Assembly: GCF_947258575.1 (NCBI RefSeq)
Contig: NZ_CAMYIV010000003.1
Location: forward strand, 62,001 to 126,000
Reading direction: 5' to 3'
Length of the DNA stretch: 64,000 nt
Source of the DNA: an uncultured Alcanivorax sp.
GTDB taxonomy: Bacteria > Pseudomonadota > Gammaproteobacteria > Pseudomonadales > Alcanivoracaceae
This document shows positions 48,475-58,285 of the stretch, piece after piece (the stretch's first letter is position 1; every line of letters begins with the position of its first letter). The notes below the pieces were generated by a model. The model ran no database searches. It saw nothing but the letters and a program-made list of their open reading frames with translations, and was not told the DNA's origin. A program made the position numbers and the translations under genes.

Positions 48475-49425
48475 ATGCATTCATTGAAACTCAGCCTGCT
48501 GTTGATCAGCACTATCATCCTTTGCGGCTGCGACGGACTGGCCAAATGGGCCTACGAGAGCGGCTTGAGCCTGGAAAAGGGTCGCGCCGGCCTGACAGAC
48601 CAGACCCTGGAAACCCGCGATGGCATTCAATGGCATCTGCTACGCAGTGAAGGCCAGAACGACAAGCCGGCGGTATTGTTGATTCACGGTTTCGGCGCCG
48701 ATTCCAGTAACTGGGTACGCTTCGTCAACGAACTGGAAGGCGACTTTCACTTTGTCGTTCCAGACCTGCCGGGTCATGGCGAAACCACCCGTAACACGGA
48801 GCTGGATTACACCATGGCAGCCCAGGCCGAGCGCCTGGTGACTCTGATGGAAACCCTGGAAATTCCGGCCTATCACGTAGCCGGCAATTCCATGGGCGGC
48901 GCCATCACCCTGGCTCTGGCGCAAGCAGCACCCGAGCGGGTGCTTTCCATGGGGCTGGTGGATTCTGCCGGGCTGACTCGCCAGACCCAGGAGTTCAGCT
49001 CACTACTGGCAACCAGTGACAGCAACCCGCTGATACCGCGCAGCCCGGAACAATTCCACACCACGCTAAAGTGGGCCATGGAAGACGCACCTTATATCCC
49101 GGAATTCTTCATCGATATCATGGGCGCGAAAAAGGCGCAGAACGCTCCTGTGGCCGACAAGATCTGGAAGGATATGGACACTGACCCGGGAGTCAGCCTT
49201 GAAGGCACCGGCAAATTGGCCAGCCTGAAGCAACCGGCACTGGTTCTCTGGGGCCGGGAGGATCGCTTGTTAGGCGTGGACAACGTGGAGGTTTTCCTCA
49301 AGGAACTACCCAAAGCCCGGGCGGTGATTCTCGATGGTATCGGCCACGTGCCCATGGCAGAAGCCCCGACCAAAAGCGCCGATGCTTTCCGGGTATTCTG
49401 GCGGGAAGCCCAATCAGGCTCCTGA
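48475..49425 (+). CDS. Lipoprotein alpha/beta hydrolase
   Basis: A 316-residue hydrolase. The signal LSLLLISTIILCGC ends at Cys19, with Asp at +2, which in Enterobacteria keeps lipoproteins in the inner membrane. The hydrolase domain shows LLIHGFGADSSNWVRFVNEL, the nucleophile in VAGNSMGGAITLALAQ, an acid in WGREDRLLGVDN, and the His in DGIGHVPMAEAP. Esterase or lipase activity on small lipids is likely; substrate unknown. The reading frame is open far upstream inside the transporter gene, but the ATG at 48475 with a lipobox is the credible start. Confidence 0.88.
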   Translation: MHSLKLSLLLISTIILCGCDGLAKWAYESGLSLEKGRAGLTDQTLETRDGIQWHLLRSEGQNDKPAVLLIHGFGADSSNWVRFVNELEGDFHFVVPDLPGHGETTRNTELDYTMAAQAERLVTLMETLEIPAYHVAGNSMGGAITLALAQAAPERVLSMGLVDSAGLTRQTQEFSSLLATSDSNPLIPRSPEQFHTTLKWAMEDAPYIPEFFIDIMGAKKAQNAPVADKIWKDMDTDPGVSLEGTGKLASLKQPALVLWGREDRLLGVDNVEVFLKELPKARAVILDGIGHVPMAEAPTKSADAFRVFWREAQSGS

Positions 49426-49441: not shown

Positions 49442-50689
49442 CTACGTTGACTGGGCCTGCCGCTGCTCCGGCGGTGTCCAGTCAAACGGCACCTGATAGC
49501 TCATCAGGAAACCACCCAGGGTAATCAGTACCCGCGAGATACCGATATAGGAATCGGGAATACTGATTCGCTCTTCACGGAAGCGCTGCATCAACTCCCC
49601 CATCGCCGCTACCGGCCCCTGCTGGTTGACCTTGTCAGTCAGCACAAAGAGAGCCAGCTCTTTCAATGTTTCCGGGCTTCCGCCTTTAAAACCTGCCTGA
49701 ACAAACAGCTCGCCGATATCCACATCCCCTTCAAAGCCCATCAGGCCGTACAGCAACCGTGAGTAACGACGCACTTCATCCGGCGTCAGCACGCCGATGG
49801 CACCGAAATCCAGAATCACTACCTGGCCCTGGTCGTTGACCAGGAAATTGCCCGGGTGCGGATCCGCCTGGTAGACCCCGAAACGGGTCACTTGCTGCAG
49901 GTAGCTGGTTAACAGTACCGAGAGCAGGTCCCTGGCCTGTTCCGGATTCGCATCCAGGTGGTTACGCAACCTTGCGCCATGTTCCCAGCTGGTCACCAGA
50001 ATGCGTTCACTGCACAGGTCATCGATCAAATCGGGAATACGAATACGGGCATGATGGGGCTGGCGGGAAAAACGCCGGGTGTTGGCGGCCTCATTACGAA
50101 AATCCAGTTCCATGGCGGTCATGATCAGCAGCTGCTCTATAGCCTGCTTCAGATCAAATTCCCGAAACCGGGGTGCAGCAATCGCCGCCAGGACCTCAAA
50201 CACCTTGGCATCCTGCTCGAACAGTTTCTTCACCCCAGGCAAACGCACCTTGATCGCCACATCGGTGCCGTCTTCCAGGCGCGCGCGATGCACTTGAGCG
50301 ATGGAGGCTACCGCCACCGGGTTCTCGTCAACCCAGCGAAAAGCGTCACGCCAGTCAGCACCCAGGGATCGTTTCAGGGCAGCGTCAATCCGTGAAAAAG
50401 GCACCGGTGCCGCGTCATTCTGCAATTGCTGAAACGCTTCAATATATTCCTGCGGCAGCACGTCTGGCCGACAACTGAAGAACTGGGCTGCCTTCACCCA
50501 GAAAGCACCATTACGTCGACACAGGGCAGTGACAATCTCGGCTCCCCGGCAGTGGCGCTGGTGGCGATCATCCTTGCCCACGCCCCCCGCATAGATCGCC
50601 GCCACACGGGCCATGGCCGTCAGTGCCCGTAAATACCGGGAACGGCCCCCAGCCAGGCCACTGACGCCGGCGATACTTTTCTTCATCAT
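49442..50689 (-). CDS. UbiB/ABC1-family atypical kinase with altered KxGQ motif
   Basis: A 415-residue protein of the UbiB/COQ8/AarF family. Kinase-like elements are intact: AVASIAQVHRARLEDGTDVA, invariant Lys in AIKVRLPG, Glu in MELDFRNEAAN, DPHPGNFLVND and VILDFGAIG. The family-defining KxGQ, which occludes the active site, is changed to K-A-A-Q (residues 66-69). It lacks the two C-terminal membrane segments of the second family member at 56624. Role unclear; relatives act in quinone or lipid metabolism. Confidence 0.85.
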   Translation of the reverse strand: MMKKSIAGVSGLAGGRSRYLRALTAMARVAAIYAGGVGKDDRHQRHCRGAEIVTALCRRNGAFWVKAAQFFSCRPDVLPQEYIEAFQQLQNDAAPVPFSRIDAALKRSLGADWRDAFRWVDENPVAVASIAQVHRARLEDGTDVAIKVRLPGVKKLFEQDAKVFEVLAAIAAPRFREFDLKQAIEQLLIMTAMELDFRNEAANTRRFSRQPHHARIRIPDLIDDLCSERILVTSWEHGARLRNHLDANPEQARDLLSVLLTSYLQQVTRFGVYQADPHPGNFLVNDQGQVVILDFGAIGVLTPDEVRRYSRLLYGLMGFEGDVDIGELFVQAGFKGGSPETLKELALFVLTDKVNQQGPVAAMGELMQRFREERISIPDSYIGISRVLITLGGFLMSYQVPFDWTPPEQRQAQST

Positions 50690-54795: not shown

Positions 54796-55119
54796 TCAGT
54801 CCCAATCATCACCGTAGTCGTGCAGCAGCTCTTCCCCGGCCTTGATGGACTTCAGGGCCACCACGGTCAGGTCGTCATAGTAAGCCACGTTGGGCTTCTT
54901 GCCGTGGTTGATGAAACGTAGATCGCAGAGCACCCGGTAGCGCTCGTTGCCTTCGTCATCCAGCGATAACACATAAGGGCCATCTTTCTTGGCTACCTTG
55001 GTTTTACACAACCCCAGCTCGGTATCTTTCTTTATGCGCTGGGTGGCAAACAGACCACGACCATGGACGGCGCTATGGCGCACTTCCAGTAAATCGTCAC
55101 GGAGATAGGGTTTTGACAT
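54796..55119 (-). CDS. Small SET-domain protein
   Basis: A 107-residue protein, essentially a bare SET domain. LEVRHSAVHGRGLFATQRIK and RFINHGKKPNVAYYDDLTVV and GEELLHDYGDDWD match the SET motifs, including the knot sequence with Asn-His and the Tyr of DYGDDW. SET enzymes methylate protein lysines. It lacks the pre- and post-SET parts. Bacterial targets of such small SET proteins are mostly unknown. Confidence 0.88.
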   Translation of the reverse strand: MSKPYLRDDLLEVRHSAVHGRGLFATQRIKKDTELGLCKTKVAKKDGPYVLSLDDEGNERYRVLCDLRFINHGKKPNVAYYDDLTVVALKSIKAGEELLHDYGDDWD

Positions 55120-55208
55120 TTTTTCGCACTTTACGTTACTGACACAGCCATGGCATCTTGCCAGAAAAGCGGTAACAGTTGAAAAATTCGATGCAAGGGA
55201 TGCATGTC

Positions 55209-56627
55209 ATGGGTTTTGCCGATTTTCCGTTTGAGTCACGTTACGTCACGGTGAATGGCCACCGCCTTCACTATATCGATGAAGGTGAAGGACCGGTACT
55301 GCTGTTCATCCATGGCAATCCCACCTCCAGTTACCTGTGGCGCAACGTGATCAAACCGCTTCGTGGTCAGTATCGATGTATCGCTGTGGACCTGATCGGT
55401 TTCGGCAACAGCGACCAGCCCGATATCGATTACCGCTTCCTGACCCATTACCGCTATCTGGAAGACTTTGTTGCCGCACTGGCACTCACCGATATTACCC
55501 TGGTACTGCACGACTGGGGCGGCCCACTGGGTTTTCGACTGGCGCAGCAACAACCCCAGATAGTCAGCCGCCTGTGCTTTATGGAAACCTTCCCGTTCAC
55601 CTGCGACTGGGATGAGTTCCCCCTGCCCCTGCGCCCGCTTTTCTTCGCCTTTCGACAGGAACGCCTGGGCCGGTTTCTGATTATCAACCGCAATCTGTTT
55701 GTCAGGATGGTGCTGCCTTTCGGGGTTATCCGTCACTTGCCGCGCAGTGTACGACGTATCTACCAGAAGCCTTTTCGTCAGCGGGCGTCCCGCTACCCGG
55801 TGTATGTCTGGCCCAACCAGCTACCGATCAATGATCGGCAGGATGAAACCTGGCAGGCCATTGAGGAGATTGAAAAGGGACTGGGCAGTATGCCCCAGCC
55901 CATGCTGCTACTGCGGTTTCGCCCCGGGGCCGTGCTCGGCCCGGCGCGCATTCGCTGGTTGCTGGAACAGATCCCCAATCTGGATATTTCCGATTGCGGT
56001 CGGGGTCTGCACTATGTGCAGGAAGATAACCCCGAGGCTATCGCTGATGCCATCCAGCACTGGCTGCATCCCCTGGCGGAAACCATCGCAGAGCAGATTC
56101 CCCCCGCAAATCCGCGTCTGTACGAATCCGACGAGTATGCAGAGCCACTGACCTGGTACTACGGCGAAAGCCGTTATGGTCATGCTCTGGTCGCCGAGTC
56201 TGCTCATGGCCTGATCCACTTTGATTTCTGCGACAACAGGGACGATGCGCTGGTCAGATTGTCACAGCGCTTCCCCGCCGCGAGCCTTACCGAGCAACCC
56301 ACAGCGACATTACTGGCCACTCTGGACCACCCCGATTGCGCACCGACTCCGCTACATCTTTGCGGTACGCCGTTTCAGCGACAGGTGTGGCACTCGCTAT
56401 TACACATCCCCCCAGGCAGCACCCGCGCCTATGGTGAGATTGCCCGGCAAATTGGCAGCCAGGCCCGGGCCGTTGGCCAGGCGGTGGGCAAGAACCGCCT
56501 GGCGATCCTGGTGCCCTGCCACCGGGTCACCCGTGCCGATGGGGGGCACGGCGGTTTCTACTGGGGCACAGCGCTGAAACAGCGGCTGCTGGAACAAGAG
56601 GGTACGACAAAAGGAAATTCCCCGTGA
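55209..56627 (+). CDS. Haloalkane dehalogenase fused to O6-alkylguanine-DNA alkyltransferase
   Basis: A 472-residue two-part enzyme. Residues 1-290 are a haloalkane dehalogenase of the DhaA/LinB subgroup: FIHGNPTSSYLWRNV with halide-binding Asn37, catalytic Asp102 and halide-binding Trp103 in LVLHDWGGPLGF, acid Glu126 in CFMETF, and base His268 in GLHYVQEDNPE. Residues about 310-470 match the C-terminal domain of Ada/Ogt: LTWYYGESRYGHALVAESAH, GTPFQRQVWHSLLHIPPGST, and the methyl-acceptor Cys437 in ILVPCHRVTRADGG. Both catalytic sets are intact and the frame has no stop. ATG 55209 is chosen for AAGGGA eight bases upstream. It overlaps the next gene by 4 bases. Confidence 0.93.
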   Translation: MGFADFPFESRYVTVNGHRLHYIDEGEGPVLLFIHGNPTSSYLWRNVIKPLRGQYRCIAVDLIGFGNSDQPDIDYRFLTHYRYLEDFVAALALTDITLVLHDWGGPLGFRLAQQQPQIVSRLCFMETFPFTCDWDEFPLPLRPLFFAFRQERLGRFLIINRNLFVRMVLPFGVIRHLPRSVRRIYQKPFRQRASRYPVYVWPNQLPINDRQDETWQAIEEIEKGLGSMPQPMLLLRFRPGAVLGPARIRWLLEQIPNLDISDCGRGLHYVQEDNPEAIADAIQHWLHPLAETIAEQIPPANPRLYESDEYAEPLTWYYGESRYGHALVAESAHGLIHFDFCDNRDDALVRLSQRFPAASLTEQPTATLLATLDHPDCAPTPLHLCGTPFQRQVWHSLLHIPPGSTRAYGEIARQIGSQARAVGQAVGKNRLAILVPCHRVTRADGGHGGFYWGTALKQRLLEQEGTTKGNSP

Positions 56628-58285
56628 GTATTCTCCACACCGGCAAAGATCTGTTGCGCATGAATGAGCTGGCCACCATTCTGCTCAAATACGGCTTTGC
56701 CGACGTGATTCGTCGACTGGGCTTGTCCACGCCAGTGGAACATGCCGGCAAGCTGGTACGCAGTTCCATGCGCCCAGACATGCTCCGCATGGGCACCGCC
56801 GAACGGCTGCGCCATGCCATGGAAGAGATGGGCCCCACCTTCGTGAAACTGGGGCAGGTGCTGGCCACCCGGGTTGACCTGTTCCCGCTGGACTGGATTG
56901 CCGAGTTCGAGAAGCTTCAGGATCAGGCCACCGCCATCCCCTATGAGGAGCTGGTCCCCCATATCGAAGCGGCCCTGGGCAAGCCTCTGGAATCCGCGTT
57001 TGCCCGCATCGACTCGAAACCCATCGGGGTCGCCTCCATCGGCCAGGTGCACAGCGGCCTTACCCGCCGTGGCCAGAAAGTGGTGCTGAAGATCCAGAAA
57101 CCCGGCATCCGCGCCAAAATCGAATCCGATCTGCGCCTGTTGGACCAGCTCGCCAAACTGGCGGCGGACAACTCGGTGGAGCTGCGCCGCTACCGCCCCG
57201 TGGAACTGGTGCGCGAGTTCAAACGGTCTTTGACCCGGGAGCTGGATTTCACTATCGAAGCGCGCAACGCTGATCGCATTCGCAAGAACATGCGCTCTCT
57301 GAAGTGGCTGACAGTTCCCCGGGTGTATTGGGAGCTGTCATCACAGACCCTGCAAGTGCAGGAGCATATACAGGGCATTCCCGCCCGTGCCACGGACCAA
57401 TTGGATGCAGAAGGCCTCGACCGGGTTCTGATTGCCCGGCGCGGTGCCCTGGCCGCCTGGAAGATGGCTCTGGAGGACGGCTTTTTCCATGCCGACCCGC
57501 ACCCGGGCAACTTCATCATCCAGAGCAGCAACCGCATTGCCATGCTGGATTTCGGCATGGTGGGAAAGCTCAGCCATAGCCGCCGCGAGCAGATTCTACA
57601 GATCACCCGCTCGGTGGTGTTACGCGAGGCCGAGCAATGCGCAGCGGTGCTCTCCAACTGGTCCGATGGCCAACCGGTCCGCTTCGATCAGCTGGTGTCT
57701 GACGTGGAGGACGTGATCAGTCAGTATCACGGTATCTCCCTGTCACAGCTGGATATCAGTGCCCTGCTCACCGATATCACCGCGCTGGTTCGCAACCATA
57801 ACCTGGTGCTGCCCAGTGATATCGCCCTGTTCATCAAGGCGATTATCACGCTGGAAGGGTTCGGGCGTCTGCTCAACCCGGATTTCGATCTGATGACCGA
57901 GGCGGAGCCACTGCTCAAACGCATGATCCGTACCCGTTATTCCCCGGTGCGCCTGGCCAAAAGTCTGAGCCTGCGCGCACTGGACGTGGTGGACAAGGTC
58001 TATGCGCCGCCCCACGCCAGCAATTTGCCGCCGCAACAGGAGGGCAGCATTGATCCTCGCCACCTGGAAAGACTGGTGGCACGGCTGGAACGCGGCCAGT
58101 ATCGGCAGGTCCAAGCATTATTGGTGGCAGCCGGTTTCATCGGCGGTTCACTGATGCTGGCTGGCCGTGTGCCCCCGGCACCATGGGAAATTTCCCTGTT
58201 TGGCCTTATCATCTTCCTCGGAAGTGCCGGCTGGGCAAGCTGGCTTATGTTTGTGTCCCGCCGTTTTCTGCGGGAATGGGAGTAA
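56624..58285 (+). CDS. UbiB/ABC1-family atypical kinase
   Basis: A 553-residue UbiB family protein of typical length. It starts with GTG overlapping the dehalogenase-alkyltransferase stop (GTGA). The KxGQ motif (VKLGQ, residues 74-78), GVASIGQVHSG, invariant Lys in VVLKIQKPGIRAK, ELDFTIEARN, DPHPGNF and DFGMVG are all present, and two membrane segments end the protein (QALLVAAGFIGGSLMLAG, ISLFGLIIFLGSAGWASWLM). Such proteins support quinone biosynthesis or lipid transport. It is not the canonical ubiE-ubiJ-ubiB operon, so it may be a paralogue rather than UbiB itself. Confidence 0.88.
   Translation: MSILHTGKDLLRMNELATILLKYGFADVIRRLGLSTPVEHAGKLVRSSMRPDMLRMGTAERLRHAMEEMGPTFVKLGQVLATRVDLFPLDWIAEFEKLQDQATAIPYEELVPHIEAALGKPLESAFARIDSKPIGVASIGQVHSGLTRRGQKVVLKIQKPGIRAKIESDLRLLDQLAKLAADNSVELRRYRPVELVREFKRSLTRELDFTIEARNADRIRKNMRSLKWLTVPRVYWELSSQTLQVQEHIQGIPARATDQLDAEGLDRVLIARRGALAAWKMALEDGFFHADPHPGNFIIQSSNRIAMLDFGMVGKLSHSRREQILQITRSVVLREAEQCAAVLSNWSDGQPVRFDQLVSDVEDVISQYHGISLSQLDISALLTDITALVRNHNLVLPSDIALFIKAIITLEGFGRLLNPDFDLMTEAEPLLKRMIRTRYSPVRLAKSLSLRALDVVDKVYAPPHASNLPPQQEGSIDPRHLERLVARLERGQYRQVQALLVAAGFIGGSLMLAGRVPPAPWEISLFGLIIFLGSAGWASWLMFVSRRFLREWE

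Follow-up and report, generated by a model that had tools for sequence, protein, structure and literature searches.

Why should a bacterium join, in one polypeptide, an enzyme of the kind that hydrolyses alkyl halides to a protein of the kind that repairs alkylated DNA? The question is raised by a gene at 55209..56627 (+) of a 64,000-nucleotide stretch of DNA from an uncultured Alcanivorax sp. (contig NZ_CAMYIV010000003.1, positions 62,001 to 126,000; hereafter the window), in which a haloalkane dehalogenase (HLD) is followed in the same frame by an O6-alkylguanine-DNA alkyltransferase (AGT). An earlier reading of the letters alone, here called the sequence-only reading, had described this 472-residue protein as a natural fusion, and our comparison of family genomes, residue checks and substitution rates uphold that description: the frame recurs in 12 of 46 genomes of the family and both of its active sites are intact. 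The function that we favor, somewhat more than any doubt about it, is that of a bifunctional alkyl-halide defence protein, which would hydrolyse the agent and repair O6-alkylguanine.

What does the frame contain? It opens with ATG, runs through 472 codons with no internal stop and ends with TGA; the single unbroken frame of the sequence-only reading holds, as does every residue number that it gave (Asn37, Asp102, Trp103, Glu126, His268 and Cys437). The first five of these residues are the pentad of the HLD half (aa 1-290; 55209..56078, +), which matches the NCBIfam HLD equivalog NF002938 over aa 6-290 with 316.1 bits against a cut-off of 241, and Pfam family PF00561 over aa 29-187. A poorly conserved linker follows (about aa 291-312; 56079..56144, +), with bounds chosen from the alignment and a size of 21-43 residues between the flanking columns in the 12 aligned fusions. 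The N-terminal subdomain of the alkyltransferase (about aa 313-386; 56145..56366, +) aligns to the front part of Ada-C (1sfe); it is fast evolving, with 9 of 74 positions invariant among the 12 fusions, and has no Pfam match of its own. The DNA-binding and acceptor domain (aa 387-466; 56367..56606, +), in which 35 of 80 positions are invariant, matches PF01035 over aa 388-465 (101.5 bits, curated cut-off 27) and TIGR00589 over aa 387-464 (95.6 bits, cut-off 46.4), and contains the codon for the acceptor Cys437 (56517-56519, +). A DhaA/LinB-type dehalogenase followed by an Ada/Ogt-type domain with PCHRV, as had been proposed, is therefore what the profile matches and the residues bear out. By sequence, the solved relatives of the first half are DhaA, an ancestral HLD and HaloTag (including HaloTag2), and for the second half E. 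coli Ada-C 1sfe (E 3.6e-26) ranks first among solved proteins, SNAP-tag standing lower. The remark that the halves belong to the HaloTag and SNAP-tag families was thus correct, and the fusion joins in nature the two enzyme families behind these tags.

Are both active sites maintained? The functional residues of alkyltransferases are an acceptor Cys within PCHR[VI], a His, a hinge Asn, an Arg finger, a Tyr and a Glu. We checked 14 positions, five in the HLD and nine in the alkyltransferase, and all were retained in each of the 12 fusions, the acceptor Cys, His, hinge Asn, Arg, Tyr and Glu among them. The HLD pentad (Asp102, His268, Glu126, Asn37 and Trp103) is present in all 17 HLD-bearing rows of the alignment, the HLD positions are kept in the four proteins that consist of an HLD only, where an apparent “hinge Asn” arises from misalignment of their final residues, and the alkyltransferase positions are kept in a stand-alone form found in genome G020. 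Values of dN/dS (NG86, eight pairs that share some genomes) were 0.04-0.20 for the HLD and 0.10-0.24 for the alkyltransferase, well below 1 for both in every pair; for the linker they were 0.26-0.64 in six pairs, dS not being computable in the other two. Both halves are under purifying selection.

In the 12 genomes the whole fusion lies on a single contig, with no stop, and in the same genomic slot. Five of them belong to one genus (g1; G000, G002, G005, G009 and G010), six to another (g3; G042, G032, G045, G041, G034 and G018) and one to a third (g7; G028); we take the first two genera to be Alcanivorax and Alloalcanivorax. A further genome, G043, has an HLD that runs off the end of one contig and an alkyltransferase that enters at the end of another, beside a kinase gene, and seems to be a thirteenth case, split by a contig break inside the gene. 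Of the records that bear a species or strain name, that of Alcanivorax jadensis T9 matches over aa 1-472 with 92% identity and that of Alcanivorax sp. DSM 26293 over the same span with 83%; Alloalcanivorax venustensis ISO4 has 57% identity in its best segment. Could the joined frame be an assembly or frameshift artefact? We reject this explanation and leave it a vanishingly small chance, because the frame stands without a stop in 12 of the 46 family genomes and in the records of A. jadensis T9 and DSM 26293 as well. The sequence-only reading had staked itself on the absence of a frameshift error and on the presence of the junction in related genomes; such an error is excluded because 12 genomes carry the identical frame, and the junction is there. 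As a separate observation, the metagenome-assembled G009 (L004, L031 and L039) contains the fusion in two versions, the first whole and the second broken into two pieces on other contigs, and for that reason probably mixes strains.

How did the two halves come to share a frame? Relatives with one half only are informative here. Four g3 genomes (G025, G029, G036 and G038) have in the slot, directly before the kinase gene, an HLD alone, of 294 aa and 61-62% identical to that of the fusion. G029, a single contig of 4,928,223 bases, encodes two HLDs, and the size and company of its slot copy fit DadA (294 aa), from which we infer that it is DadA of Alcanivorax dieselolei B-5, an enzyme described as relatively independent of HLD-II (PMC3938430). 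The 17 slot proteins come together in an HLD tree as a single group (support 100/100), within which G028 stands outside and the Alcanivorax fusions are set against a group of the DadA type and the Alloalcanivorax fusions (99/95 and 99/94). The four HLD-only genes accordingly nest among fusions; a tree that unites the 13 fusion rows without the DadA type was rejected (p-AU 0.017), so that DadA as the state before fusion is disfavored and, to judge from the sequences, a repair half has most likely been lost in the DadA type. A tree of the neighboring Lon protein (33 genomes, after four of 37 stretches, G017, G021, G027 and G035, were dropped since their Lon match was absent or too short) groups the same lineages alike, with the position of G028 and G020 unsure. 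Inside Alloalcanivorax the HLD tree pairs G042 with G032 (100/98), whereas the Lon tree places G042 with G018, G034 and G043 (94/93), a discord that could reflect recombination or error.

The other half also occurs by itself. G020 (genus g5) has in the slot a stand-alone alkyltransferase that groups with the fusions against 16 Ada-type rows (99/96), in a tree where the joining of the fusion and Ada-type groups was flagged as one of long branches; it does so too in a core-only alignment to which six Ogt-like and two outside rows were added (85/90). Its first residues, MNLFADLP, resemble the MGFADxPF of the fusions, a likeness that is only suggestive. The row L157 (G237), an alkyltransferase frame whose preceding part, read by eye, resembles an AraC-type helix-turn-helix, shares a larger clade (97/95) with the alkyltransferases of the fusion type. 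All that is recognised of the HLD before the kinase gene of G039 (L101) is its start codon and opening four codons (M G F A), behind the 20-base block described below; this looks like the scar of a deletion. A recent horizontal gain in Alcanivorax is disfavored as far as the sequences go, because the HLD of the window is about as similar to that of three Alloalcanivorax fusions (66-68% identity) as are its neighbors RluA, SET and ABC1 (68-77%) and because the main lineages come out alike in the HLD and Lon trees. The simplest history on these data would be an old fusion with repeated losses.

What, then, might the fusion do? HLDs transfer the alkyl group of their substrate onto an enzyme Asp, from which it is then hydrolysed. 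Given the intact HLD-II pentad, Asp102 would attack the haloalkane carbon, the halide departing to Asn37 and Trp103, and His268 with Glu126 would hydrolyse the alkyl ester to the alcohol. The retained alkyltransferase residues likewise suggest that the C-terminal domain binds DNA and that Cys437 would accept the alkyl group of O6-alkylguanine, once; alkyltransferases move it onto Cys irreversibly (PMC10779285). Both activities would serve one stress, that of the alkyl halides encountered by marine oil degraders, and joining them would create no new activity but would supply the two at one place and in a 1:1 ratio. That one protein should destroy alkyl halides and repair the damage they cause is plausible chemistry, and Alcanivorax strains are reported to degrade haloalkanes (PMC3938430). 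The gene has a fixed genomic place across genera, and one or both halves are absent from related lineages. The matches of both halves to their families, a lineage order that is the same in the HLD and Lon trees, one Alloalcanivorax fork apart, and a frame that persists even in genomes without the downstream kinase all support a bifunctional defence protein, and because the residues are intact, dN/dS is low and the joining is retained, both halves most likely work.

To our knowledge the natural substrates of many HLDs are unknown. The conserved attachment of an HLD to O6-alkylguanine repair gives a direct hint, from genetics, that this HLD lineage, if no other, serves in defence against DNA-alkylating halides; it makes such a role for HLDs a testable idea, and the sister lineages with one half only are its natural controls.

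Several findings weigh against a bifunctional defence protein. The gene is absent from 12 of the 17 genomes of the genus, and so is dispensable; that four genomes keep the HLD in the slot without the alkyltransferase means that the halves can exist apart; and the genome of the window itself (G000) has an additional stand-alone Ada-like frame. The alkyltransferase half changes faster than the HLD, both in dN/dS and in identity between genera, which is 60-68% for the HLD in the rows compared and 23-39% for the alkyltransferase N-terminal subdomain in the four rows compared. The spacing from Tyr408 to Arg420 is 12 in all 15 rows from the slot, including G020 and the second copy of G009, against 14 or 15 in 23 of 24 other alkyltransferase rows (rows unreadable by the motif pattern were omitted, and the twenty-fourth, L140, with a printed value of 5, is a misread tyrosine), so that the slot rows are at least two residues shorter; to go by the sequence, DNA binding could suffer from the shortened turn that precedes the recognition helix. 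For G028 and G020 the alkyltransferase trees depart from the Lon tree and put both beside or among Alloalcanivorax rows, placements to which we give little weight because they involve long branches in a short alignment; long branches, those of G028 and G020 among them, were flagged in the Lon, HLD and alkyltransferase trees. AlphaFold models were poor, both for the whole protein (eight sequences; pLDDT 59.3, pTM 0.44) and for the second half (five sequences; pLDDT 67.8, pTM 0.60), and domain geometry is not derivable from them; Foldseek named the expected families for these models at an rmsd of 11-30 Å, matches from which we draw no conclusion. Finally, when made in E. coli the HLD-only relative DadA always ended up in inclusion bodies, according to PMC3938430. 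This insolubility may reflect a missing partner domain.

Does the joining matter to function at all? It is quite possible, even if we lean the other way, that the two halves are active and independent, and that fusion serves only to fix their ratio within an operon with the ABC1 kinase. The linker varies in length and is under relaxed constraint, and the halves do occur apart elsewhere, the HLD in four genomes and the alkyltransferase in G020; however, the joined frame has been retained in 12 genomes across three genera whose HLDs have diverged to the extent given above. We think it unlikely that one of the halves is not enzymatic in the usual way, the alkyltransferase having become a DNA tether or a sensor of alkylation that switches the HLD, or the HLD acting on a different substrate. 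The shorter turn before the recognition helix, common to all 15 slot rows, and the rapid change of the alkyltransferase N-terminal subdomain would both fit such a shift, but the alkyltransferase active-site set stands complete in every one of the 12 fusions, as does the HLD pentad in each of the 17 rows that have it.

Two bolder forms of the defence proposal deserve mention. PMC8024977 reports that 1,2-dibromoethane reacts with the acceptor Cys145 of AGT, cross-linking AGT to DNA, and that overexpressed AGT paradoxically raised the toxicity of this compound in both bacterial and mammalian cells; characterised HLDs turn it over well, DadB at 236 nmol/s/mg (PMC3938430). As a special case of bifunctional defence, the HLD might remove such a dihaloalkane before it reached Cys437 and so spare the cell DNA cross-linking, an idea with which the retention of both nucleophiles in all 12 fusions agrees and which we nonetheless regard as doubtful. 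The stand-alone Ada-like frame of G000 would be beyond the protection of a tethered HLD, and small haloalkanes diffuse fast, which makes local depletion by a slow enzyme questionable. Marginally less doubtful, and still improbable, is a one-chain defence in the wider sense, in which an HLD tethered to a suicide repair protein, one that alkyl halides might otherwise poison or convert into a DNA cross-linker, would protect both the repairer and the genome, with DadA and the G020 protein as its natural split halves.

How does the fusion compare with systems already known? With the HLD-II enzymes (DhaA, LinB and DadB) it has in common the Asp-His-Glu triad plus Asn and Trp, the same pentad being described for DadB (PMC3938430), and its HLD half is 41-46% identical to DhaA-type and ancestral HLD chains. 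It differs from them in the attached alkyltransferase; no HLD matched outside the family had both halves together. The DadA type occupies the same slot with an HLD of the similarity already given, but lacks the second half. With Ada-C, Ogt and MGMT the fusion shares the PCHRV acceptor motif and its partner residues, but it is two residues shorter between Tyr408 and Arg420 and sits behind an HLD. The hallmark of the Ada regulator is an N-terminal zinc/methyl-phosphotriester domain with an AraC-type helix-turn-helix, for neither of which the fusion has a Pfam match, and the Ada profile PRK15435 aligned over positions 190-350 of 354 only, with 107.8 bits against a cut-off of 345. Alkyltransferase-like proteins (ATL) lack the acceptor Cys, its position being taken by a different residue, whereas Cys437 is present here. 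Alkyltransferase fusions already known, as described in PMC10779285, are AGT-EndoV of Ferroplasma acidarmanus, archaeal ATL-EndoV and AGT-2 of Caenorhabditis elegans, with endonuclease V (EndoV) or a histone-like domain as partner. Like the fusion described here, AGT-EndoV couples an alkyltransferase to another domain, but it joins two repair activities; the partner in our case would act on the alkylating agent and not on DNA.

Is the arrangement confined to the family? No place with both halves was found outside it in draws of 369 genomes from the class, 390 from the order and 398 from the phylum, nor among the matches listed for 94 relatives. These draws share genomes, and their lists stop at E 1e-30, 1e-40 and 1e-40, respectively, so a fusion of separate origin whose HLD is very different could have been missed. 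When 84,980 named genomes were scanned for exact peptide patterns, 10 loci came back: one fragment, four lone HLDs and five of fusion type, all of which belong to Alcanivorax or Alloalcanivorax and one of which is truncated by a contig end. No plasmid record had a single place covering 80% of the query protein; among viral contigs four scans turned up four loci, of which three contained pieces of an alkyltransferase, one contained a piece of an HLD and none contained both. An alkyltransferase was also not detected, at E 1e-3, in any of 25 fetched loci bearing HLDs of other kinds. We found no report of an HLD-alkyltransferase fusion in the open literature searched, most subscription papers being outside its reach. 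One use case of HLD mining excluded proteins with additional Pfam domains (PMC13355053), which may be part of the reason why such fusions remain unstudied.

The slot in which the fusion resides is itself conserved. The gene order common to the genera is methyltransferase, Lon, RluA, a divergent SET gene, the fusion, ABC1 kinase, M48 peptidase, NfuA and sulfite/nitrite reductase, the genes from M48 onward being unmatched or beyond reach in some stretches. In the window the slot is bounded upstream by the small divergent SET-domain gene (54796..55119, -; PF00856, placed by synteny). Downstream lies the ABC1/UbiB-type kinase gene (56624..58285, +; PF03109, 239 bits), which starts with GTG in a 4-base overlap (GTGA) with the stop codon of the fusion. 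This kinase follows the fusion directly in eight of the 12 fusion genomes, cut by a contig end in G009. The fusion is also in frame in G010, G041 and G045, which contain no close match to the ABC1 kinase, and in G028, with no such kinase seen next to the fusion. In all 12 fusion-less Alcanivorax genomes SET adjoins the kinase, with a gap of 92-462 bases.

Between the divergent SET gene and the fusion is a 20-base block, TGGCATCTTGCCAGAAAAGC (55151..55170, +), with the inverted repeat TGGCA-TCT-TGCCA. It occurs, exact, in the slot of 19 of the 46 family genomes, with or without the fusion, and is absent from G028. A control site private to the fusion was considered and rejected, for the block stands before the kinase in three genomes (G004, G012 and G039) with no HLD or alkyltransferase in their slot. 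Being exact in slots that lack the fusion, it is probably not the fusion's alone but part of the ABC1 kinase operon or of the SET gene, and it is possibly a candidate promoter or operator of one of these. A promoter search gave one site where 1.2 were expected, and no promoter was assigned on that basis.

Two minor observations concern the neighborhood. The window encodes two ABC1/UbiB-type kinases about 6 kb apart, at 49442-50689 (-) and 56624-58285 (+), neither of which, with 205 and 422 bits, reaches the UbiB cut-off of 487.55, and a relative 29% identical to the second is encoded elsewhere in the genome (G000:C12). In addition, a frame at 48589-48996 (+) has a weak match to the HLD half (24% identity over 137 aa, E 6e-9) and is probably another alpha/beta hydrolase.
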